A stretch of DNA of 43,247 bases from Bacteroidales bacterium (GTDB taxonomy: Bacteria; Bacteroidota; Bacteroidia; Bacteroidales; UBA12077). The notes below the pieces were generated by a model. It saw only the letters and a program-made list of their open reading frames with translations. It was not told the origin of the DNA and made no database searches. The stretch's first letter is position 1. Every line of letters starts with the position of its first letter. Location: the NCBI GenBank assembly GCA_030668615.1, contig DAOUTQ010000004.1, forward strand, positions 1 to 43,247, given 5' to 3'. Below, piece after piece: positions 4,205 to 16,079 of the stretch. A program made the translations under genes and the position numbers.

Positions 4205-4234
4205 TACCAAGTAAAAAATATTATACTAATTCTT

Positions 4235-4264
4235 AACAGCCCATTTAATAATGGGCTGTTATTT
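4235..4264. terminator. Hairpin terminator shared by convergent genes
   Basis: A perfect 10-bp inverted repeat, AACAGCCCAT (4235-4244) and ATGGGCTGTT (4251-4260) around a 6-nt loop, sits between convergent genes. The T tract is short on both sides. The last codons and stop of the - strand gene at 4245 lie inside the hairpin. Confidence 0.7.
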
Positions 4265-5243
4265 GTATATATACTATTAATCCTATAAGAATAATTAATA
4301 AACTATTTAAATACCAGCTCTTCTTTATAGTATAAAAATAATTGGTTAAAAGGAAGGATACAGGTATACTGATTAGATAAATTATCTCAAATGAAACATT
4401 TTTAAAAAAGAAAAATAATACCAAACAGAAAACAAATACCCACAAATTAATTACAAAATATTTTCTTGTTCTAATTTTTTTCTTTTGAAAGTTTACAACA
4501 AGAACATAACTGGCATTTACAATAATAAAAAACAGAAATCCATAAAATAAATAATATGCTAAATGTATGTTACTAAATTCTTTTACAAAGCTAAATCCCG
4601 CTTTAATATTCTCAACTAATAAAGCCATTTCTGACAAATCAAAAGCCACAAAATAAAAGACAAAAACAAATAAATATGGAGTAAGAAAGCCTAAAATACT
4701 TACAATCCATTCTCTTCCAATAAATGGTCTTAATACAGATAAAGATATCCATATTACAATAAAAAATACTGCGAAGGGAATCCAAAATAAAGATGCAATT
4801 GATATAAAAAACCCAGCCAAATAAAGTTTATTCAAAGCATATTCTACTCTATAAATACTAAATATATAGTTGAGCGACAAGAAAATAAAAATTGTCCCTA
4901 TTAAAACCGGATTAAATCTTTGCAAAGGAATAAAACTACTTGAAATTAAAATGTAAAAAAAAGCAGGCAAGTATGTTCTGTAATTAATTAATATATACTT
5001 CTTATTAAATTGTATCAGTAAAAAAGCCTGAAATAAAACAAAAACAAAACCCACAAATATTGAAACAATTGAATTAATGGGAATAATACTTTCAAAAAAG
5101 TTATACAAAGGCATATTTAATATATCTCCTGATATTTCAATTACATTTGTATTTAAAATTGAAAACCCCCATATAAGGATTCCGGTTAAAACAATAAAAA
5201 TAATTACTCCGGGTCGGTTACTTTTTAAAATAGAAGAAATCAT
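4245..5243 (-). CDS. Multi-pass membrane protein, DUF6427-like
   Basis: This 332-residue, very hydrophobic protein has roughly nine or ten predicted membrane segments and almost no soluble domain. The N-terminus (MISSILKSNRPG, then a hydrophobic helix) and the position next to purD resemble the DUF6427 family of Bacteroidota. I recall the resemblance but could not test it. The gene starts 5 nt after the purD stop, so it is co-transcribed with purD. The C-terminal residues TAHY are encoded inside the terminator hairpin. The function is unknown. Confidence 0.7.
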   Translation of the reverse strand: MISSILKSNRPGVIIFIVLTGILIWGFSILNTNVIEISGDILNMPLYNFFESIIPINSIVSIFVGFVFVLFQAFLLIQFNKKYILINYRTYLPAFFYILISSSFIPLQRFNPVLIGTIFIFLSLNYIFSIYRVEYALNKLYLAGFFISIASLFWIPFAVFFIVIWISLSVLRPFIGREWIVSILGFLTPYLFVFVFYFVAFDLSEMALLVENIKAGFSFVKEFSNIHLAYYLFYGFLFFIIVNASYVLVVNFQKKKIRTRKYFVINLWVFVFCLVLFFFFKNVSFEIIYLISIPVSFLLTNYFYTIKKSWYLNSLLIILIGLIVYIQITAHY

Positions 5244-6540: not shown

Positions 6541-6572
6541 CAAATATAAATAACCAATTGCTTGTCAACAAA
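6541..6572 (-). promoter_or_regulatory. purD promoter, Bacteroidota type
   Basis: Read on the - strand, TTTG (6569-6572) is followed after exactly 20 nt by TATATTTG (6541-6548). Both elements and the spacing match the Bacteroidota primary sigma consensus. The -7 element lies 23 nt before the purD ATG. Confidence 0.75.
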
Positions 6573-6595
6573 TTAATTTATCATTGTATATTAAC

Positions 6596-6625
6596 AATAA
6601 AAAAGGGCTCTGGAAAAGAGCCCTT
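6596..6625 (-). terminator. Intrinsic terminator of the lasso/T9SS transcription unit
   Basis: AAGGGCTC (6603-6610) and GAGCCCTT (6618-6625) form an 8-bp stem with a 7-nt loop. On the - strand the hairpin is followed by a T-rich tract, so it should terminate transcription arriving from the 6764-10090 gene before it reaches purD. Confidence 0.8.
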
Positions 6626-6637
6626 AATAGTATTATA

Positions 6638-6697
6638 CCGTTTATTATTCAAGTTGTCATATTTGTGAAAAACAAATATGGATTGAATATATAACGG
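6638..6697. repeat. Long two-part inverted repeat between the T9SS gene and its terminator
   Basis: The inner stem is a perfect 9 bp, CATATTTGT (6658-6666) and ACAAATATG (6672-6680) around a GAAAA loop. The outer arms 6638-6652 and 6683-6697 pair at 12 of 15 positions, with a 3-nt internal mismatch. The whole 60-nt element lies just after the stop of the 6764 gene (in its transcript) and before the terminator. It could be an mRNA 3'-end structure, a small RNA or a mobile REP-like unit; no second copy was seen in this window. Confidence 0.5.
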
Positions 6698-6763
6698 CAT
6701 TAACCATTCTAATCTTCAAGACATCACATTATATGCAACATTTTGAAGAAGAATTGGTATTAT

Positions 6764-9700
6764 TTACTGTATAATAATTTTTCTATTGATGCTTACTTCT
6801 TTGTTATAAAGTCGTATGAAATATATCCCCTTAGGATAATTAGCAACATTAATTTCTTTCAAGTTTTCTTCACCAAAGAGATTTAAATTTTTGGCATAAA
6901 CTATACCTCCTGATACATTTACAAGCTGAATTACAAAATCGCCTTCATATTCTGTTTTAATAAATAGTCGACCTGAAGTTGGATTAGGGTAAATCCTGAT
7001 TCTTTCATCAGAAAAATAATCATCTATACCATCAGGAGAACTTACCGATAAAGTACTTGATGTTACAGGTCCACATAAATTATCATCTGTTACATCTACA
7101 GTATAATCTCCAGGCAATAATGATTCAAAAACACCTGTAGAATTATTTATATTGCCTGGATTTAAAGTATAGTCTAAAACTCCCGTTCCTCCCGTTGCGC
7201 TAACTGTAACAGATCCATCTGAAACAGATGATCCAGAAGCATCTGTAGTGTTTTCAGAATTAATTGTAATGACTTCAGGTTCTGTTAAATTGTGATTATC
7301 TGTTGCTTCACATCCTTTATAATCCGAAACTGTAACAATATAAAATCCAGCACCTAATCCGTTTGCAATTGCCGATGTTTGATGCCCGGGATCACTCCAT
7401 TCATATGAATATGTTCCATTTCCACCACCAGCATTAGCTAGTAGTTCTCCATCTATTAATCCATTACATGATGGTTCATTCCCTAAACTTATTGATACAC
7501 TTAAATCAAATTCTGGTTCAGTAATTTCATAATTAGTAATAGAAAACGAACATTCCATGTCATCAGTAACTGTTACACTATAGAAACCTGCACCAAGACC
7601 GTTAATATCTTCAGTAGTTTTACCATTACTCCAGTTGAATGAATATGGTTCCGTTCCATCTTCAGTAATGGTTAAGTTTATTAAACCATCTTCATCTCCT
7701 TTACAATAAACAGCAGTTGTAGATCCGCTTAATGATCCAGATAAATTATATGATAATTCATAGATAATGACACTGTCTACAATGCTTACATCAGGTTCTT
7801 CATCAGTATCAGTAACTGTAACATAATATTTAATTCCAGCACCAATACCAGTTAAATTATTTGCTGTTGCCGTTATTTGATCTCCTGCGTTTGAGTCCCA
7901 CAGGTAAGTAATATTAGTATGCCCAACGGGGGAATAATAGTTTACAGTAGCTCTTCCGTTTGAAACTCCATTACATGCATCTTTTTTAGATTCAATATAA
8001 CTAGAGAACTCAAATTGATTAATAATAATGAATGATGTGTCAGCATTACACAAATTCTCATCTGTTACCGTAACATTATATGTTCCCGGATTTAAAGTAT
8101 TAATATCCTGGATATTGTTTGTATAACCATCAGGCCCTGTCCAGCTCGCTCCATAAGCAGATGGTGTGCCGGTTCCTCCCGTTATTTCTAAGTCAATTTC
8201 TCCCTCAGAACCTACGCCTAAGTAATGTTGAACAATAGAAGAATTCCCAAACCGCATTGTATCCGGACCATTAATATATATTGCTGTATCACCTGTACAA
8301 GAATTTTCATCAGTAACGGTCACTTTATATTCGCCAATGCCAAGCCCACTTTGATCTTCTGCTTCTAAAACTGTTCCTTCTCCAACCCAATAATATTCAT
8401 TGCCACCATTGCCTCCTGTAACATTTAGATCAATTGCACCTTCTTCAGAATCACTACAAGTTGTTACTTGCGTAATATCTGGATTAAAAATAAAAGCATC
8501 AGGTTCTGTTAAAATATATTGGGCAACATCAATAGAATCTAATGCGTCAGTAACAGTAACAGTATACGTCCCGGCAGAAAGACCTGTCGCTGTAGAATCT
8601 GTTCCTCCAATATTCCATAGATACGTATAGGGCTTTTCACCAAATTTGGGTGTAACAATTAATTCTCCATTGCTTTGTGAATTACATGTAGGCCTGGTAA
8701 TTTTTGTAAATGCAGCAGACAAAGGAGCATAATATTTTGCAACAACTCCATCTCTCAAACCTGGATTTGTATTAGTATAAGTACTGTCTCCAACAGGCAA
8801 AATAGTTGATTGAAAATATCCACTCATTACAACTACACCCGTATTTAAAACTATACTTCCTGCTGCCAAATCATTATTGTCATCTCCTCCTAACTTAATG
8901 CCATTATAAGGATTTAGATTCAAATCAAATGATGCTAAAAACATATCTCTATCTAAAGTGCCTGTTGTAGTTAAAGTATCTCCATTGAAATTAATAGAAT
9001 CACTAAAATATCCAGACATATACAGGATATCATTACTCAAACTTAAATCAACGCCAAAATCACGACCATCGTTACCAAAATGCTTGTTTAATTGTAAAGT
9101 GCCTGATTTATTATATTTTAAAACAAAAATGTCGAAATCATTAACGTGATTTAAAACCTGATTTGCAATAAGACTTTCAGTTGAGTCAGCTGAAAATGTT
9201 GAACTTTGATAGTATCCTGTAAAGTATACGTTTCCATAAGCATCTCCTGCAATAGATCCAGTTGCATCTAAATTATCGCCATATGTTCTTCTAATCCACA
9301 TTCCGTCTCCATCACTATCCGTTTTATAAAGGAACAAATCTTGTTTTCCAGCAACATTACTAGTAATTGTTTCTAAATCAAAATTCATATCATCTCTAAA
9401 GTAACCATTGAAATAATACTCATTTTGATAGACTTTAACATTATTAATTCTTGAAGCTGCACTACTTCCTGACACATTTTTTATCCATATTTTTACTCCA
9501 CTAGTGTCAAATTTTGCAAAAAAGTTGTTTTTCCCGGAACTGACAATGCTCTGATCATAAATAAATATAGAATCCGTATAATGTCCTGTAATTATAAGAT
9601 CATTATTCATATCCACATCAATATCAGTAGGACTTTGTTGAGAAGGATAAGTAGCTATTTTATTAGCCCAGTTTAATTCACCGCTACTATTATATTTGCT

Positions 9701-10090
9701 AAGAAAAATATCATAATTGCCATCACTTTTCAGATAATTATTATCAAAAACACAGCTATCTTGAAAAGCTCCAACCAGAAATATATTATCATCATTATCA
9801 ATAGTTAACCGAGGATCGAATTCCATTAAGGAACTTCCTACAGTTTGAACCCATTCAATATTAAAAGAAGGATTTACCTTTGCTAGAAATATATCATAAT
9901 TTCCTTCAGAGGTTATACCTTGAAAAGTTCCTTTAAAAATTCCAGCAGCGTAAAAGTTATCATTGTTGTCTTTTTTAATATCCAGAATTCGTAAATCATC
10001 ATCACACTTAAATTGTTGCGAAATAATCCAGGTTTGACCAAAACTCCCAACGGGGAAAATTAACAGTAAAAAGTATATTATTTTTTTCAT
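6764..10090 (-). CDS. Secreted SprB-repeat protein with T9SS sorting domain
   Basis: This 1108-residue protein begins with a signal peptide (MKKIIYFLLLIFPVGSFGQ). Residues about 25-455 form repeated blades of the kind 'YDIFLAKYN..G...W', similar to SBBP/beta-propeller repeats. Residues about 460-1020 hold several SprB-type repeats recognisable by 'GG.G.Y.Y.WS', 'GLGAGFY.VTVTD' and Cys-containing turns. The last 75 or so residues are a type A T9SS sorting domain (RIYPNPTSGRLFI...GIYFIRL...KIIIQ). The protein should cross the outer membrane by T9SS and be surface-attached or released. It starts only 10 nt after the stop of the lasso precursor ORF, so the two are probably on one transcript. Whether it serves the peptide or is an unrelated adhesin-like protein is not known. 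Confidence 0.9.
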   Translation of the reverse strand: MKKIIYFLLLIFPVGSFGQTWIISQQFKCDDDLRILDIKKDNNDNFYAAGIFKGTFQGITSEGNYDIFLAKVNPSFNIEWVQTVGSSLMEFDPRLTIDNDDNIFLVGAFQDSCVFDNNYLKSDGNYDIFLSKYNSSGELNWANKIATYPSQQSPTDIDVDMNNDLIITGHYTDSIFIYDQSIVSSGKNNFFAKFDTSGVKIWIKNVSGSSAASRINNVKVYQNEYYFNGYFRDDMNFDLETITSNVAGKQDLFLYKTDSDGDGMWIRRTYGDNLDATGSIAGDAYGNVYFTGYYQSSTFSADSTESLIANQVLNHVNDFDIFVLKYNKSGTLQLNKHFGNDGRDFGVDLSLSNDILYMSGYFSDSINFNGDTLTTTGTLDRDMFLASFDLNLNPYNGIKLGGDDNNDLAAGSIVLNTGVVVMSGYFQSTILPVGDSTYTNTNPGLRDGVVAKYYAPLSAAFTKITRPTCNSQSNGELIVTPKFGEKPYTYLWNIGGTDSTATGLSAGTYTVTVTDALDSIDVAQYILTEPDAFIFNPDITQVTTCSDSEEGAIDLNVTGGNGGNEYYWVGEGTVLEAEDQSGLGIGEYKVTVTDENSCTGDTAIYINGPDTMRFGNSSIVQHYLGVGSEGEIDLEITGGTGTPSAYGASWTGPDGYTNNIQDINTLNPGTYNVTVTDENLCNADTSFIIINQFEFSSYIESKKDACNGVSNGRATVNYYSPVGHTNITYLWDSNAGDQITATANNLTGIGAGIKYYVTVTDTDEEPDVSIVDSVIIYELSYNLSGSLSGSTTAVYCKGDEDGLINLTITEDGTEPYSFNWSNGKTTEDINGLGAGFYSVTVTDDMECSFSITNYEITEPEFDLSVSISLGNEPSCNGLIDGELLANAGGGNGTYSYEWSDPGHQTSAIANGLGAGFYIVTVSDYKGCEATDNHNLTEPEVITINSENTTDASGSSVSDGSVTVSATGGTGVLDYTLNPGNINNSTGVFESLLPGDYTVDVTDDNLCGPVTSSTLSVSSPDGIDDYFSDERIRIYPNPTSGRLFIKTEYEGDFVIQLVNVSGGIVYAKNLNLFGEENLKEINVANYPKGIYFIRLYNKEVSINRKIIIQ

Positions 10091-10100
10091 ATGTATTTTT

Positions 10101-10259
10101 TTAAGAAGATTGTGTACCTACATAACTAGTTCCTTCAGCTTCTCCTGTAAAAGTTCCTCCCTCTGTTTTTCCTTTATCCAAACAAATTAACTTTGGAGCC
10201 TCCCAAATAAGTCTTTCAGAACAACCGTCAATTTCTATTTTAATTCCCTTTTTATCCAT
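10101..10259 (-). CDS. Putative lasso peptide precursor (A)
   Basis: This is a 52-codon ORF with a single possible ATG; an in-frame TGA lies upstream before any other ATG. The leader (residues 1-33) carries WEAPKL at 19-24, which fits the [Y/W]xxPxL motif recognised by lasso B1 proteins, and Thr32 at the penultimate leader position. The predicted core is GGTFTGEAEGTSYVGTQSS (residues 34-52). Gly1 can be the ring amine, and Glu7 or Glu9 the acceptor for a 7- or 9-residue macrolactam. The core ends in Ser-Ser, the kind of end phosphorylated by PadeK/ThcoK-type kinases, and such a kinase is encoded here. The gene sits 138 nt after B2 and 10 nt before the T9SS gene. Ring size and cleavage site are inferences. 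Confidence 0.8.
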   Translation of the reverse strand: MDKKGIKIEIDGCSERLIWEAPKLICLDKGKTEGGTFTGEAEGTSYVGTQSS

Positions 10260-10397
10260 TTCAACACGTTTATTTTGATTTCAAAAATTATGCAAATTAC
10301 TAATATTCAAGTAAATTTATTGCGGTTTTATTGATTCTACAAGTTTTTTGTTATAAAAATAATTCACTATACTTTAAATCAAACTAAAATTTAATAT

Positions 10398-10835
10398 TTA
10401 ACTAAAAAATCCAACAACAGTAAATTTTTCATATCCTTTCTTTCCTGTTATAAAATCATCGCCAATTTTAAGCCATGCATGTGCAATCAATTTACTATTT
10501 TTATTCTTTGACACACCAAGATAAATTGTTGATTTTACCCTGTGTTTTTCCAGCACCTTTTTTACTGCTATTGCCTCTTCAAAGCATTTTACTTTCCAGG
10601 GCAATCTTTTTTTTAATCGTCTAATATTTTTTTTCGCAATATCTATTAACCAAATTTGGTTTTCATTTATACCAACTTCAATCTCTTTTTTAAACTCTCC
10701 AAGAATAGAATTAAACCATTTTAAAGGAATAATTCGAGCCAGTATAAAAGCATAAATCAACCAAAAAAAAGTTTGATTTAAAATTTTACGTTCGGTTTTA
10801 TCTGTCTTATAATATTTCTTAAACAGTTTGAACAT
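10398..10835 (-). CDS. Lasso peptide B2 protein, transglutaminase-like leader peptidase
   Basis: At 145 residues this has the normal length for a stand-alone B2 protease (PF13471 type). It should cut the precursor leader after the penultimate-Thr site. The Cys-His-Asp triad is visible: Cys84 in KCFEEA, His119 in AHAWL and Asp126/127 in GDDFITG. The first 40 or so residues include a hydrophobic stretch (FFWLIYAFILARIIPL), as is usual for the family. B1 ends 36 nt upstream, so they form one operon, and the precursor ORF follows 138 nt downstream. The B1/B2 split is typical of Gram-positive and Bacteroidota lasso loci. Confidence 0.9.
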   Translation of the reverse strand: MFKLFKKYYKTDKTERKILNQTFFWLIYAFILARIIPLKWFNSILGEFKKEIEVGINENQIWLIDIAKKNIRRLKKRLPWKVKCFEEAIAVKKVLEKHRVKSTIYLGVSKNKNSKLIAHAWLKIGDDFITGKKGYEKFTVVGFFS

Positions 10836-10871
10836 AGTTGATGTTCATCATTAATTTAAACGCATTAATAA

Positions 10872-11162
10872 CTAATATGTTACAACAACGAGCTCTTTTT
10901 CAATTAAATCCATGATAAATGGAGCAATATCCGCAAAACATTTGTTTTCATCAATATTATAATTCTCCGTAATCATTTCAATCAGAGCTTTTATTTTAAT
11001 AGGGCTCTCAATATTATCCCAGATAAAGGTTCCTGTCTTGCCTAAGCCATAATACTCTCCTTTTTCGATGCTCATCATTACTTTTTCGCCATCCAGATCG
11101 CTGGTAAGAACATCGGTTTTCTTTTGTATAATTGTGTCTAATGTAATTTCTATTTTAGCCAT
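10872..11162 (-). CDS. Lasso peptide B1 protein, PqqD-like leader-binding protein
   Basis: This 96-residue PqqD-like protein (RiPP recognition element) is predicted to bind the precursor leader and present it to B2 and the cyclase. Family features are the pattern 'SDLDGEKVMMSIEKGEYYGLGKTG..IWDNIE', followed by a winged-helix-like helical half. It begins 2 nt after the sulfotransferase stop, so translation is probably coupled. PqqD-like proteins serve many RiPP types; the neighbouring B2 and asparagine-synthetase-like cyclase mark this one as lasso. Confidence 0.88.
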   Translation of the reverse strand: MAKIEITLDTIIQKKTDVLTSDLDGEKVMMSIEKGEYYGLGKTGTFIWDNIESPIKIKALIEMITENYNIDENKCFADIAPFIMDLIEKELVVVTY

Positions 11163-11164
11163 AT

Positions 11165-12031
11165 TTATAAAACAGGTTTGTTGTTAGTGTCAATATATCT
11201 GTATTTCTTCATTACTGAATTATGATTTGAGATAATTTCTTCTATTGTTTTTTGATCCAAATAATTTCTCCAATCTCCGATTTTACCTTTTCTAAAGAAT
11301 GACTTTGATTTTATCATCTTTTCTTTAAATCCGGCTTCTTTTTCTTGATTTTCAAGAACTGAGAAATCGCTTTTTTTGATTGCATCATTAATTTCTAAAT
11401 CGGATTTTTCAAGTCCAATAAACTTTACTGCGTTTTTAAAACATTCAAATGTATCGTTAATCATATCCTCATAACGAATAATATGAATAGGAATATTTTT
11501 TTGCTTAGTCCAACTCGTTACATGATCTGACCAAGATCCTAAAATTTGCCGAAGCTGATTTTGAAGTTTGTCGTTTTGACTACAAAAAGCAAAATCTGAA
11601 TTATTCAGTGTTTTTACCATTTTCTCAACTGGTTTGGCACTATGATATGCAAAAGAAACCAAAACATCCAGTGGATTTCTAATAAAGTATATTGTCCCTC
11701 TTGTAATTTCTGTTGGGAATAAAGCTTCACCTCTTTCTGTTAAATAATATTTATCGTGAACTTTCTTAAACAACAATTCCTTACTTTCAACAGATTGCAT
11801 TCGATAAACTTCTGGTCGTAGAGAATCAATTTCAGTAAAAGTTAAATCGGATGACGAAAGACCTGTATACTCATCAAATATTTTTCGCGAGCTTGATATT
11901 GAGGTATCAGTCAAATCATTAATATTTGCAGGAATATCTGAATCACTTAACAAATTCGTAAGAAACACTCGAAACCATGTATTACCCGACTTTGGATAAC
12001 TTGCAAGCCATATAATATTTTTCTTATCCAT
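11165..12031 (-). CDS. PAPS-dependent sulfotransferase, putative lasso tailoring enzyme
   Basis: The enzyme should transfer sulfate from PAPS to a hydroxyl or amine acceptor. In 288 residues the 5'-phosphosulfate loop YPKSGNTW is at 12-19, the probable catalytic His at about 92 (KKVHDKY), the 3'-phosphate motif IRNPLDVLVSF at about 117-127, and the C-terminal RKGKIGDW segment near 250. It overlaps the kinase gene by 8 nt and lies 2 nt from B1, so it is inside the lasso operon rather than beside it. The core peptide has one Tyr, several Thr and Ser as possible acceptors. It could instead act on the tailored phosphate or sugar group. It is unlike the second sulfotransferase at 36709. Confidence 0.88.
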   Translation of the reverse strand: MDKKNIIWLASYPKSGNTWFRVFLTNLLSDSDIPANINDLTDTSISSSRKIFDEYTGLSSSDLTFTEIDSLRPEVYRMQSVESKELLFKKVHDKYYLTERGEALFPTEITRGTIYFIRNPLDVLVSFAYHSAKPVEKMVKTLNNSDFAFCSQNDKLQNQLRQILGSWSDHVTSWTKQKNIPIHIIRYEDMINDTFECFKNAVKFIGLEKSDLEINDAIKKSDFSVLENQEKEAGFKEKMIKSKSFFRKGKIGDWRNYLDQKTIEEIISNHNSVMKKYRYIDTNNKPVL

Positions 12032-12920
12032 CCAGATTAAGCTTTTTCAATAAGAAATCTCCAAATTCATTTAATAATAAAGGTGATTGTGGTCTGGCAA
12101 CTTTATAAACCCTGGTTTCAGGTAAAAGTTTATTTAACACCTGAAAATGGTCCTGTTGCTTATCAAGACCCTGAACAAATCTATGACGATATGTATTGAT
12201 TTTTACTGCATTAAATTTCTTAATTCCGGTCAACTCTTCAAACTCAAATCCGGGAGAATTTTTTGTATTTATGATGATAATATTTTTTAAAGGAAGAGGT
12301 TTGTTAAAATAGTTTTCATTAACAGGTAACTGAAATTTCATCATGTCAGGTCTGATCTGCTCTAAAGACTGATCTTCTATTTTTAGTTTTTGCAAAATAT
12401 CATTCCATAATTTCATTTTTGGAAAACCTGGAACAACCTCAAGATTATGATTTACAACACTTATATCGTCGGCTAAAACCTGAAAAGCCTGACTAACAAA
12501 ATATGCTGCAATAGAAGATTTCCCAACTCCACTTACACCGGTAAAAATAGTTGCCGACTTTCCAAATTTTACTGCACTTCCATGAATCGGTAATAAACCT
12601 CGCTGAATAAATAATGCACCAAAAGCCGAACCTAAAAGAAACAAACGAACTTCTTTATCAATCTCCTTTTTAAAAGGCTCAACATTTATTTTATTTCCAT
12701 TAGCAACAAAATACTTTGCAATATTATTAACCTCTAATAGAAATTCGTTTTTTGCTGCTTGATACATTACACCTTTATTAATTACTTTGTCAAGCTTTTG
12801 GGGAGTTTTTCCAATCTTTATCTCGATATCTGGCACACCATCTGAAACCAATAATTCAGGAATTTCAAAATCAGATTTAATATTTAATCCGAACGCCTTA
12901 TATGTAAAGGTTTTTATCAT
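12024..12920 (-). CDS. HPr-kinase-like lasso precursor kinase
   Basis: This 298-residue protein has the N-terminal pattern YKAFGLNIKSDFEIPEL seen in RiPP-associated HPrK-like kinases, a conserved LPIHGSAV block with His113, Walker A GVSGVGKSS at 128-136 and an acidic LADDI pair at 151-152. Related kinases ThcoK and PadeK phosphorylate the side chain of a C-terminal Ser of lasso precursors, and this precursor ends in Ser-Ser. It is the first gene of the - strand arm, behind a TAAATTTG promoter element, and overlaps the sulfotransferase by 8 nt. It lacks the usual context of carbon-catabolite HprK (no HPr or PTS gene nearby). Confidence 0.88.
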   Translation of the reverse strand: MIKTFTYKAFGLNIKSDFEIPELLVSDGVPDIEIKIGKTPQKLDKVINKGVMYQAAKNEFLLEVNNIAKYFVANGNKINVEPFKKEIDKEVRLFLLGSAFGALFIQRGLLPIHGSAVKFGKSATIFTGVSGVGKSSIAAYFVSQAFQVLADDISVVNHNLEVVPGFPKMKLWNDILQKLKIEDQSLEQIRPDMMKFQLPVNENYFNKPLPLKNIIIINTKNSPGFEFEELTGIKKFNAVKINTYRHRFVQGLDKQQDHFQVLNKLLPETRVYKVARPQSPLLLNEFGDFLLKKLNLDG

Positions 12921-12938
12921 TGTTTTTCTTGCTTAGCG

Positions 12939-12946
12939 CAAATTTA
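12939..12946 (-). promoter_or_regulatory. Promoter -7 element of the kinase-sulfotransferase-B1-B2 arm
   Basis: On the - strand the sequence reads TAAATTTG, a full match to TAnnTTTG, 18 nt before the kinase ATG. The upstream -33 element is unclear. It faces the + strand promoter at 13014-13021, giving a divergent regulatory region for the lasso locus. Confidence 0.5.
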
Positions 12947-13013
12947 CATGAAAATGCCATAAAAGTAAGTATTATTGAAGTTTTTGCCTGTAGAATTATC
13001 CTTTTCAATTGCT

Positions 13014-13021
13014 TATCTTTG
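13014..13021 (+). promoter_or_regulatory. Promoter -7 element of the cyclase-nucleotidyltransferase arm
   Basis: TATCTTTG fully matches TAnnTTTG and ends 14 nt before the ATG at 13036. Transcription should begin near 13028. This makes an ATG at 13009 upstream of the RNA and supports 13036 as the start codon. A well-spaced -33 element was not seen. Confidence 0.55.
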
Positions 13022-13035
13022 TTAAAATAGTTTTT

Positions 13036-14916
13036 ATGAACTCCTTTTTCGGAAGAATAAATAATAACAAAACTCCAATTGATCAATCTCTTTTTAGCAA
13101 TAGTATTGATGTATTATCAGTATTTCCTGATGTCAAAAAAGAAATCAGTATAAATAATAATACAGGTCTGGGACAAGTTCTTTTTCCTCCATTTACACAA
13201 GCAGGTATTCAACATTCAACGAAAAGGATTGTTTCCGACTCAAAATTATACAACTTACAAAATCTTGTTCAAAAGTTAGATATTAATGAGAATCAGGCTG
13301 AAGAAAGTTTTGTCATTTTAAAAGCCTTTGAAAAGTGGGGAAAAGATTGTATTAAGTATTTTCTTGGAGATTTTGCATTTGCAATTTGGGATTCAGAAAA
13401 AGAAGAGCTCTTTTGTGCGCGTGATCATTTGGGAGCAAAACCTTTTCATTATTTTTTTAACGGTGAAGCTTTTGTTTTTAGTTCTGATATAAGTGCGATT
13501 CTCACTCAAGAAGATCTTAAATTTAGCATTGACGAACAATATATTGCTGACTCTATTTCTATTCTAAAATCTGAAAAGCACACAACAAATTATAAAGAAA
13601 TTAAAAAGTTGCCTCCTGCTTCTTACTTGTTTTTAAAGAGTGGTGAATTAGAAATTAACAAATATTGGGAACTAAAACCTCAAAAAACTCATTTTAAAAG
13701 CAATGAAGAAATAATTAAAGAATTCAAATCTATCCTTATTGAATCTGTAAAATGCAGGGCGTACGGTCAAAATTCTGTTGGTACTGAATTAAGCGGAGGG
13801 ATTGACTCGTCAAGTGTTATGGCAATTGCTAAACAATTTGTAAAATTAAAAACTTTTTCTCACGTATTACCAGATAATCTTTTGGGTAAAATTCATCCTT
13901 GTAAAGATGAACGTGATTTTATAAACCTTTTAGGTGATTTCTGCAAAATTTCAAATCGTCATTTTATAACTTCAGAGGAATCTTTAGTAAAAGTTATACA
14001 AGATAATGTTGTATATTCAAAAAATATATTCCAACAAAATTTTGGTTTTTTTTCTGATTGTTTGTATCAACATGCAATGAAGGAAAATGTTTCTGTATTA
14101 CTTTCCGGATTTGGTGGAGATGAAGTTACAACATCAAAATCTTTGGGATATCTTTCTGAATTAGCCTCAAATAATCAGTGGAAAGAACTAAAAAGAGATC
14201 TCAAAAATCAAAAGTCCAATAAATACAGATATTTAAGAACTCTATTAAAGTATTTTCTAAAATCAAAAGCTCAATTTATTTATAAGATTATTGCTTTAAA
14301 TAAACATAAAAAGCCATTTTGGTTTGGGAAATTTGAAAATCTTGCAATAAATAATGAGTTTTCTGAAAAATTCAATATTAAAGAAAGATACTTTTCTTAT
14401 TACAAAAAATCAGACAATTCATCTTTACAAGAAAAGAATATTGAAAGAATAACTCATACGCACGTTTCGCAACGACTTGAATATTGTTCTTTAATTGCAC
14501 GTAAATATGGTGTTGAGTATCGTTATCCTTTGCTTGACAAACGATTAATTGAATTTTATCTGGCTATACCGGCAAGATTAAAAGCACGAAATGGAATTGG
14601 AAGATATATTATCCGAAAAGCTATTGATGGTATGGTTCCTGAAAAAATACAGTGGAGAAATGATAAAAGCGGAGCTACAATTCCAACTGTTTTCATGCGA
14701 ATGATTCATGATAAAGAGCAAATATTGGAAATTATAAATCAAGCGAAACAAAACAAAGTTGTTAAAAAGTATGTTGATATAGAAAAATTTGAACAGTGGT
14801 TTCATAAATTCTGTCAAAGGTCTGATAACAAACAAGAGCATGTTAATCCAAGTGCCTTTTATAATTACCTGAAGCTGATAATTTTTATTGAAAAAAATCC
14901 AAGTCTTTTTGAATGA
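13036..14916 (+). CDS. Asparagine-synthetase-like lasso cyclase (C)
   Basis: This should adenylate the Glu side chain of the core and close the macrolactam with the N-terminal amine. From the ATG at 13036 it has 626 residues. The N-terminal glutaminase-like half begins MNSFFGRI, so the catalytic Cys2 of true asparagine synthetase is absent. The synthetase half has the ATP/PPi loop SGGIDSS at about 253-259. An in-frame ATG at 13009 gives nine extra residues but precedes the predicted transcription start. The stop overlaps the next start by 4 nt (ATGA), so the two are translationally coupled. Together with B1 and B2 this defines a lasso locus; on its own an AsnB-like enzyme could do other chemistry. 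Confidence 0.9.
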   Translation: MNSFFGRINNNKTPIDQSLFSNSIDVLSVFPDVKKEISINNNTGLGQVLFPPFTQAGIQHSTKRIVSDSKLYNLQNLVQKLDINENQAEESFVILKAFEKWGKDCIKYFLGDFAFAIWDSEKEELFCARDHLGAKPFHYFFNGEAFVFSSDISAILTQEDLKFSIDEQYIADSISILKSEKHTTNYKEIKKLPPASYLFLKSGELEINKYWELKPQKTHFKSNEEIIKEFKSILIESVKCRAYGQNSVGTELSGGIDSSSVMAIAKQFVKLKTFSHVLPDNLLGKIHPCKDERDFINLLGDFCKISNRHFITSEESLVKVIQDNVVYSKNIFQQNFGFFSDCLYQHAMKENVSVLLSGFGGDEVTTSKSLGYLSELASNNQWKELKRDLKNQKSNKYRYLRTLLKYFLKSKAQFIYKIIALNKHKKPFWFGKFENLAINNEFSEKFNIKERYFSYYKKSDNSSLQEKNIERITHTHVSQRLEYCSLIARKYGVEYRYPLLDKRLIEFYLAIPARLKARNGIGRYIIRKAIDGMVPEKIQWRNDKSGATIPTVFMRMIHDKEQILEIINQAKQNKVVKKYVDIEKFEQWFHKFCQRSDNKQEHVNPSAFYNYLKLIIFIEKNPSLFE

Positions 14917-16079
14917 TCGACATAAAAAAACATATAGAACTGAAATTCTCTGATGAGCTAAAACTTTTGATTTTTCTTTCTCAAGATGAATTAAATGATA
15001 TCTCTTGCTCGGGAAATTTAGACAATATTGATTGGGATGAATTTGTAGATTTGACAATAAAACACAGGTTAGTATCTCATGTATTAAAACATTCGGGGTT
15101 TTTAGCTGAAAAATTTCCAATTCCGGTTTATGAAAAATTAATTGATGTTAGACTAAAACACTCAAGAACATCACTTAATTATGCTATTCACGCTATTCGA
15201 ATATTTCAAGAATTTAACGAAAAGGATATTCCACATTTGTTTTTTAAGGGTCCATTACTTTCTTTGGAATTATATAATGATATTGGATACAGAAATTTTG
15301 GTGATATTGATGTATTGGTTAAAAAGAATGATGCTGAAAAAGCTAAAATTCTAATTGAGGAATTAGGCTTTACTTGTATTTATCCAAGAATTAAACTTAC
15401 TGAAAAACAAAAAGAAGTAAATTACAGTATTAGCCACCATTATCAATTTAAACATCCTGTACAAACTATTCATATTGAGCTACACTGGAATATTACAAAT
15501 CCGGAAACTTTTTTTGGTGTAGAATCAAAAGATATTATTTCAAACTCCATTAATTTAAAAGTGTCGAACTATGAATTGCCATATATTTCAAAAATTGAAA
15601 ACATTGTCTTCCAGGCTGCACACGGATCTATTCATCAGTGGTATAGATTATTCTGGTTAAAAGATTTTTCGAAGCTGCTAACAATGGTCAATCCCGAAGA
15701 TCTGAAAAAAGCATTTGATTTATCAAAAAAACTTAAGCTTCAAAATTGTTTTATTCAGGCATGTTTATTATCAAATTTACTTTACAAAACTGATGTTCCT
15801 GATTTTGAGAATTTCAATATTAAAAACCATTTAATTAAGATTCCAGTAAACTCAATATCAAAAAAAGATTTAAGTAAGCAAGGATTAAAAGGCAAAATTA
15901 AATTCGTTTTTTATAGAATCCGTTTGAAACCCGATTTCAAATATTACTTTGAATTAATTTATAGATTAAGAACTCACCTTTCAGACTGGGAATTAATAAG
16001 ATTCCCTAAAAAAGCATTCTTCTTATATTATATTTTTCGACCTTTTTTACTGATTTATAAATTTCTATTTAAAAAATGA
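14913..16079 (+). CDS. Nucleotidyltransferase-family protein, putative lasso tailoring enzyme
   Basis: This 388-residue protein has the PF14907-type pattern: KGPLLSLELYNDIGYRNFGDIDVLV at about 112-136, with acidic residues Asp131 and Asp133, and IELHWN with Glu189 as a likely third acidic ligand. Similar genes accompany kinases in lasso loci of Bacillus and Paenibacillus (paeninodin and pseudomycoidin types), where extra modification of the phosphorylated tail has been proposed. The exact group transferred here cannot be read from sequence. It overlaps the cyclase by 4 nt and runs 15 nt into the convergent deacetylase gene. Confidence 0.83.
   Translation: MIDIKKHIELKFSDELKLLIFLSQDELNDISCSGNLDNIDWDEFVDLTIKHRLVSHVLKHSGFLAEKFPIPVYEKLIDVRLKHSRTSLNYAIHAIRIFQEFNEKDIPHLFFKGPLLSLELYNDIGYRNFGDIDVLVKKNDAEKAKILIEELGFTCIYPRIKLTEKQKEVNYSISHHYQFKHPVQTIHIELHWNITNPETFFGVESKDIISNSINLKVSNYELPYISKIENIVFQAAHGSIHQWYRLFWLKDFSKLLTMVNPEDLKKAFDLSKKLKLQNCFIQACLLSNLLYKTDVPDFENFNIKNHLIKIPVNSISKKDLSKQGLKGKIKFVFYRIRLKPDFKYYFELIYRLRTHLSDWELIRFPKKAFFLYYIFRPFLLIYKFLFKK

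Follow-up and report, generated by a model that had tools for sequence, protein, structure and literature searches.

The contig stretch DAOUTQ010000004.1 from the genome of a Bacteroidales bacterium (43,247 nucleotides (nt), hereafter the window, to which coordinates refer unless another locus is named) carries a lasso-peptide locus at 10101-16079, and directly behind its precursor gene lies the gene of a large secreted protein, T9, built like cargo of the type IX secretion system (T9SS). The locus contains a complete maturation set and three candidate tailoring genes, and between closely related species the peptide core and the N-terminal propeller of T9 fall into one island of low identity amid well-conserved genes. 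Read from sequence, this arrangement suggests a decorated lasso peptide that works with a surface propeller, both of them variable; we put the probability of this reading, in which the partnership is the inferred part, at about 0.6. The continuation of the operon into T9 is a more unusual part of the locus than its enzymes, and it was absent from the initial annotation.

The lasso locus and the secreted protein T9

Open reading frame (ORF) calls confirm seven lasso genes in two divergent arms. On the minus strand, the order is kinase K, sulfotransferase ST, leader-binding protein B1, leader peptidase B2 and precursor A, followed by T9; on the plus strand, cyclase C precedes nucleotidyltransferase N. 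The initial annotation had proposed that precursor, B1, B2 and an asparagine-synthetase-like cyclase are all present in divergent arms, which ORFs and profile searches bear out, the precursor being supported by conservation. The tight packing by which it tied in the three tailoring genes is equally found: K and ST overlap by 8 nt (12024-12031), C and N by 4 nt (14913-14916), and 2 nt separate ST from B1. The other gaps of the minus arm measure 36 nt (B1/B2), 138 nt (B2/A) and 10 nt (A/T9), and for C the sequence favors a start at ATG 13036 over the listed TTG 13009. Comparisons within the genus use, unless stated otherwise, the 12 loci whose whole K arm is readable, window included.

6764..10090, minus strand: T9, secreted, 1108 aa; beta-propeller, SprB repeats and type IX sorting tail
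6770..6994, minus strand: T9 C-terminal type IX sorting domain, aa 1033-1107 (PF18962); conserved with the sister species
8723..10036, minus strand: T9 N-terminal beta-propeller, aa ~19-456, hypervariable (structure model and fold match)
10101..10259, minus strand: lasso precursor A, 52 aa; leader conserved in 12/12 genus loci
10101..10160, minus strand: predicted core GGTFTGEAEGTSYVGTQSS (with stop), from the Thr(-2) rule and comparison of 12 cores
10398..10835, minus strand: leader peptidase B2 (PF13471, 62.1 bits; NF033537, 69.5 bits, cut-off 33)
10872..11162, minus strand: B1, PqqD-like leader-binding protein (RiPP recognition element, RRE; PF05402, 56 bits; NF033536, 96.4 bits, cut-off 80)
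11165..12031, minus strand: sulfotransferase ST of the 3'-phosphoadenosine-5'-phosphosulfate (PAPS) type (PF00685, 102.9 bits; YPKSGNTW, RNPLDVLVS)
12024..12920, minus strand: HPr-kinase-like kinase K (PF07475, 24.2 bits; His113-Lys134-Asp151-Asp152)
13036..14916, plus strand: asparagine-synthetase-like lasso cyclase C (PF00733, 156.5 bits)
14913..16079, plus strand: N, NTP_transf_5 nucleotidyltransferase family (PF14907, 157.5 bits)

That this is a lasso-peptide locus we regard as close to certain, and by its kinase it is of the class to which paeninodin and pseudomycoidin belong. B2 scores well above its cut-off, with Cys84 and His119 invariant across 20 aligned B2 sequences, B1 aligns with 9x90_B, a lasso PqqD chaperone of solved structure, at 71.2 bits, and the best NCBIfam model for C is that of the lasso cyclase, although C stays under its cut-off. 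The mismatch of B2 or C to lasso families that would have refuted the initial annotation is not seen. C retains the ATP motif SGGIDSS and has Asn at position 2 in place of the Cys2 that asparagine synthetases carry. A dedicated McjD-type ATP-binding cassette (ABC) exporter, by convention D and frequent though not universal in lasso clusters, is linked within 2.5 kb in none of the 12 genus loci.

T9 combines SprB repeats (PF13573, 61.2 bits) with a Por_Secre_tail domain (PF18962, 50.2 bits) and starts, as read by eye, with the hydrophobic stretch MKKIIYFLLLIFPVGSFGQ. Residues 19-500 were modeled, and the first ~440 of these form a high-confidence all-beta fold (mean pLDDT, the predicted local distance difference test, 87.8) whose nearest fold in the PDB is CylK, at a template modeling (TM) score of 0.68-0.69 and 22-23% identity, a likeness that implies no function. 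These features mark T9 as predicted cargo of a T9SS, for which SprA was the component searched: this translocon component was found in 6/6 genus genomes searched, in the window's own genome at 2682.8 bits to TIGR04189. Where relatives of T9 adjoin other lasso clusters they are built alike, apart from the tail of L051, which is CHU_C instead of Por, and a cut copy in L114, in which no tail was found. Within its own genome, T9 otherwise has partial matches (E <=1e-10), with at most 35% identity over 324 residues.

T9 is probably the last gene of the lasso operon, because a terminator-like hairpin lies behind it. This hairpin is a possible end of a K-ST-B1-B2-A-T9 transcript; by itself it is weak, as 3 terminator-like sites were found against 3.3 expected by chance. 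Promoter-like elements stand before both arms, labeled by the consensus TAnnTTTG, which we take to be that of the -7 promoter element, and counted over 14 genus loci, one further locus not being extractable.

6603..6625, minus strand: terminator-like hairpin behind T9; 9-pair stem with 5 G-C pairs, T tail
12939..12946, minus strand: promoter-like TAAATTTG (-7 element) of the K arm; kept in 12/14 genus loci
13014..13021, plus strand: promoter-like TATCTTTG (-7 element) of the C arm; TAnnTTTG on the same strand in 11/14 genus loci

No structured RNA was found in the window at Rfam gathering scores. At 12-2762, 4 kb from T9, lies an ABC-2 type transporter of 916-919 aa, which its ABC2_membrane domain indicates is not of the lasso-exporter kind.

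Recurrence and divergence of precursor and T9

Of 19 other genomes in the genus, 15 encode an orthologue of the cyclase with 48-75% identity, and it is missing from G001, G005, G008 and G014 (70-93% complete). In G009 (L046), C and N are present with no K arm beside them, and L038, L039 and L047 are cut by contig ends. The initial annotation had asked how gene order compares across genomes: wherever the contig is long enough, that is in the window and 11 other genus loci, the seven genes keep the order A-B2-B1-ST-K/C-N, flanked by deacetylase and TMEM260-like genes, plus purD where the stretch reaches it. Outside the genus lasso B2 is infrequent, with 17/395 genomes of the class by the curated model and 47/393 genomes of the order by a broader alignment, two of them doubtful.

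The tandem of A and T9 reaches beyond the genus. T9 starts within 120 nt behind A for all 12 genus precursors and for 10 of 31 precursors elsewhere, the latter spread over 8 families; of these 10 loci, five were reached through searches for cyclase or B2, and five had been fetched for their T9 match. Among the 20 loci fetched for T9, the latter five have A directly before T9, one (L115) has T9 beside the cluster and two are too short; T9 also lies beside the cluster in 7/32 further B2 loci of the order. Among the 393 order genomes, T9 (E <=1e-40) is present in 39, B2 in 47 and both in 24, so that B2 occurs in 24/39 genomes with T9 vs 23/354 others (Fisher p = 1e-15, and 4e-12 without the genus, values that are overstated since the genomes are related). 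A tree built from 46 chosen cyclases places the T9-linked clusters in two groups with exporter-linked clusters between them; the larger T9 group includes four rows without a seen T9, and the tree requires 5 changes, at least 3 of them forced by well-supported branches. A different arrangement occurs in L136 (4256-9391) and L143 (4140-9263), where T9 lies directly behind C (K-ST-B1-B2-C-T9) and no precursor is recognized; a divergent precursor may be hidden in both.

Where core and propeller stand out is in their divergence between close relatives. Against the sister locus L005, the T9 propeller, the SprB part and the core make up one low-identity island of 44-58% nucleotide identity: 0.53 for the propeller (8591-10090), 0.58 for the SprB part and 0.44 for the core. 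Its edge coincides with the leader/core junction, and identity outside returns to 0.80 for the T9 tail, 0.82 for the leader, 0.88 for purD, 0.80 for C and 0.84-0.88 for the remaining genes (B2 to K 0.86-0.88); the purD-T9 spacer is low as well (0.42-0.58 in bins around 6550-6850). The closer pair L003/L037 (TMEM260 98% identical as protein) repeats the pattern, with propeller 0.57 and core 0.31 beside leader 0.90 and K 0.93. Across the 66 pairs within the genus, the identity of propellers is uncorrelated with species divergence (Spearman -0.08), while K (0.79) and C (0.78) follow it and ST does so less closely (0.50). As protein, T9 is 47% identical to its sister, whereas two secreted-looking repeat proteins of the same genome, used as controls, reach 76% (1011 residues) and 85% (2391 residues) to the same sister; both had been picked for a partial match to T9, and their domains were not scanned. 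Within the propeller, variability is similar in strands and loops (1.45 vs 1.58 bits), and no binding face was identified. In the cyclase, identity to L005 dips to 0.67-0.73 at 13600-14050 (0.79-0.93 nearby), a dip that is not obvious in L003/L037; this is possibly the part of C that meets the variable core.

Precursor, tailoring enzymes and a proposed maturation path

Precursor A has no family match in profile searches; we consider it real because a homologue stands at the same place in 12/12 genus loci, which answers the doubt raised at the outset that relatives might lack one. The leaders share WE[AVT]PKL, and [TE] precedes the core in all 12. In the window, a WxxPxL leader is followed by KTE and then by GG with Glu at positions 7 and 9, the pattern of a lasso precursor, and with cleavage placed by the rule of Thr at -2 (available parts of PMC10368454) the predicted ring joins Gly1 to Glu9, Glu7 being possible. 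The unmodified 19-residue lasso has a calculated [M+H]+ of 1817.78. Genus cores are 15-19 residues long and differ beyond their first two residues and an acidic residue. Under the same rule, the L003 core would begin with Asn1, and the acidic residues of the L005 core are confined to 3, 6 and 10. A shifted cleavage, with Thr at -3, would let all 12 genus cores start with Gly1 and place an acidic acceptor at 7-9; we disfavor it, as L100 (KTGG) and the rule itself fit Thr at -2 better, though L003 and L005 may use either site.

Two loci show other surroundings of A: in L049 of the sister genus, the precursor (770-973) and C point away from each other and none of K, ST, B1 and B2 lies between them, and in L003 two small ORFs (4214-4917), presumably a toxin-antitoxin pair of the MNT/HEPN type, lie between A and B2, an insertion not seen in L037, its closest relative, where A and B2 are separated by a short gap.

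K carries the full His-Lys-Asp-Asp (HKDD) motif described for lasso kinases (in the parts of PMC9266682 available), with H113, K134, D151 and D152. All 12 genus precursors end in Ser, as do 28/36 precursors of kinase-bearing loci overall, the others being those of L081 (two, both Thr), L092, L100, L137, L139, L141 and L146. That K acts on the C-terminal Ser is, on this pattern, quite probable. The two precursors of L081 (14358-14643) stand in tandem in a cluster with kinase and sulfotransferase, and both end in Tyr-Arg-Thr.

ST is coupled strictly to K: in 35/35 loci with an ST score >60, K is the gene immediately upstream, in the same orientation and within 200 nt, and the two genes mostly overlap. 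K occurs without ST in 18 loci, some of them truncated. N is absent from the fetched stretch in 9/35 ST loci, and some of these stretches are short, so that N may lie elsewhere; because of these nine, ST appears to follow K rather than N, and we rejected the idea that ST acts only on an N-made sugar. Tyr as the general sulfation site was rejected too, as the core has no Tyr in 7/27 precursors of ST loci. An APS (adenosine 5'-phosphosulfate) kinase, which would supply PAPS, is present in the genome, and YPKSGNTW and RNPLDVLVS in ST are, we assume, its PAPS-binding motifs. That ST acts on the peptide seems likely to us, and on the most economical reading K and ST would share one peptide as substrate, ST modifying either a Ser/Thr or the group that decorates the C-terminal Ser. 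By family label, N would be of the annotated kind of PsmN.

The K-ST pair shows several variations. The lasso clusters of L055 (4052-6740) and L139 (5507-8236) each contain a single ST flanked by two kinases, a kinase-sulfotransferase-kinase triplet. In three species, ORFs are inserted at the same place between B1 and ST (L004, 5492-6040; L041, 8785-9555; L042, 8940-9458), and by the motif FCIMPNHFHAII we take them to be transposases associated with repetitive extragenic palindromes (RAYT/Y1-type). Relatives of ST also occur on plasmids (7 records, at best 37%, the best match unannotated). On plasmid pTM1 of the alphaproteobacterium Tistrella mobilis (L155), an HPr kinase and a sulfotransferase overlap by 4 nt and are followed by a nucleotidyltransferase, a trio outside Bacteroidota in a stretch with no annotated lasso gene.

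From these elements we propose a maturation path. B1 would bind the WxxPxL leader, K would phosphorylate the C-terminal Ser of the linear precursor as PsmK does, and N would add a hexose (or a nucleotide) onto that phosphate as PsmN does; ST would sulfate the same peptide or its decoration. B2 would cut after Thr-Glu, and C would close Gly1 onto Glu9 to yield a 19-residue lasso. The propeller, exported by the T9SS and probably co-transcribed, would work with the peptide at the cell surface, whether by binding it, by conferring self-immunity or by carrying it, and the variability of core and propeller would reflect partner specificity under diversifying selection or allele exchange.

Alternative explanations and known systems

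That T9 is a functional partner of the peptide we think likely, and several results weigh against it or against the class assignment beneath it. Of the families expected by the initial annotation, those of B2 and B1 are matched above the cut-offs of their lasso models, and ST and N clearly belong to theirs; K stays below the PF07475 cut-off of 33.3 bits, and C reaches 402.6 bits to the lasso cyclase model NF033535, under its cut-off of 525. No lasso gene lies near T9 in 12 of the 20 loci fetched for it (in one of them, L111, a cyclase-like ORF stands some 15 kb off), T9 lies beside the cluster in 0/18 lasso loci of the class sample, and the 770 nt of contig behind A in L049 contain no T9 match. 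Of 36 non-genus clusters, 17 lack both T9 and a linked ABC exporter. The propellers of L003 and L004 are 71% identical and their cores unrelated, and the correlation between core identity and propeller identity is -0.33, on cores too short for this to mean much. Finally, while the first control protein stays at 60-71% in the more distant G013, G015, G011 and G010, the second is at 67-68% in G013 and has partial matches of 38-51% in G010, G011 and G015. Divergence of a secreted protein at larger distance is therefore not special to T9, and the case for its unusual divergence rests on the close pairs.

Many of these points would be expected if the locus were an ordinary kinase-class lasso cluster and T9 an unrelated, fast-evolving surface adhesin hitchhiking at the end of the operon. 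T9-type proteins away from lasso genes, the lack of pairwise co-variation between core and propeller, and the second control all fit such an adhesin, and lasso cores vary anyway. Speaking against it are the recurrence of A-T9 tandems in 8 further families and across two distinct cyclase clades, the enrichment of B2 among T9 genomes (which are not independent), and the gap between T9 and both controls in the sister pair; we consider hitchhiking unlikely, though a serious contender. A further thought is that T9 replaces the missing exporter, the peptide binding to the folded propeller in the periplasm and leaving with it through the type IX pore. The T9SS moves folded cargo, no McjD-type exporter is linked in the genus, and outside it, at 2.5-kb linkage, 10 clusters have T9 only, 9 an exporter only, 0 both and 17 neither. 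Yet 7/10 of these T9 clusters are cut by an edge, for which reason a strict exclusion of T9 and exporter is only suggestive, and at 3.5 kb one non-genus cluster has both; as the inner-membrane step is also left unexplained, we find such an export role improbable. Less probable still is that the substrate of ST, K and N is a glycan or T9 itself rather than the peptide. Kinases, sulfotransferases and nucleotidyltransferases of these families also serve in glycan pathways, and TMEM260-like and deacetylase genes adjoin the locus; set against this are the frequent C-terminal Ser of kinase-locus precursors, the precedent of paeninodin and pseudomycoidin, and the recurrence of the K-ST pair with lasso genes amid different neighbors.

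For the peptide-propeller partnership, surface recognition or immunity would fit the variability best. A speculative extension would be a polymorphic recognition system, in which a lasso peptide bearing phosphate, sugar and sulfate is matched at the surface to a T9SS propeller transcribed with it. Such a pair might conceivably serve to tell self from non-self, for antagonism that includes its own immunity, or for delivery, and we would only tentatively suggest that the adjacent core and propeller are exchangeable as one cassette between conserved leader and conserved sorting tail. To our knowledge, no natural role has been assigned to most lasso peptides that come with tailoring kinases. A variable, recurrent and adjacent secreted protein is a concrete candidate for the peptide's partner in Bacteroidota and provides a testable binding hypothesis.

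In the literature searched, mostly without subscription journals, we found no link between a lasso peptide, or a RiPP (ribosomally synthesized and post-translationally modified peptide) more broadly, and type IX secretion, and the A-T9 tandem would be the first such link there. In the parts available, PMC12016528 treats lasso peptides and the T9SS in unrelated passages, and PMC10352776, on RiPP mining in Bacteroidales, contains two words beginning with lasso and no mention of T9SS or type IX. Nor did a limited literature search yield a sulfated lasso peptide; in one paper examined the word sulfated refers to a different peptide, and a 2026 review (PMC13352647) contains no word beginning with sulfot.

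The combination of kinase, sulfotransferase and nucleotidyltransferase, from which the initial annotation expected a new kind of decorated product, has precedents. In 2014, HPr kinase and sulfotransferase genes were noted in some lasso clusters of anaerobic Gram-positives (PMC4289311), and sulfotransferase and nucleotidyltransferase genes are described in kinase clusters of Firmicutes (Zhu et al. 2016, via PMC8498205), both sources being available in part. The pairing of kinase and sulfotransferase in one lasso cluster is the same as here, and the available passages mention no T9SS partner. The sulfotransferase question has been open since at least 2014 (PMC4289311, available passages), and the strict K-ST coupling makes it testable on small precursors.

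According to the accessible parts of the reports, the closest characterized systems are those with a tailoring kinase. PsmK is the kinase for the C-terminal Ser of pseudomycoidin, to which hexoses are added by PsmN (PMC9266682). Its psm cluster from Bacillus pseudomycoides (PMC9266682, PMC8498205) shares with the window the HPr-kinase-type kinase, the C-terminal Ser, which is phosphorylated in psm, and an annotated nucleotidyltransferase. In the pade cluster of paeninodin from Paenibacillus (PMC9266682), the kinase targets the linear precursor at its C-terminal Ser; a kinase and a C-terminal Ser are found here too. Unlike both, the present locus belongs to Bacteroidota, adds ST, is split into divergent arms, has no linked ABC exporter and includes a T9SS protein in its operon. 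The LPP clusters of Bacillota (PMC13381572, in part) share an RRE, an HprK-like kinase and an NTP transferase; they use an SpI-type peptidase and are linked to lasso enzymes in about one third of cases, whereas B2 and C are both present here. CylK (PDB 7ron) is an alkylating beta-propeller enzyme whose fold the N-terminal domain of T9 resembles, with no evidence of catalysis in T9. Taken against these systems, the enzyme set was known before in Gram-positive clusters, and the candidate T9SS partner is the newer element.

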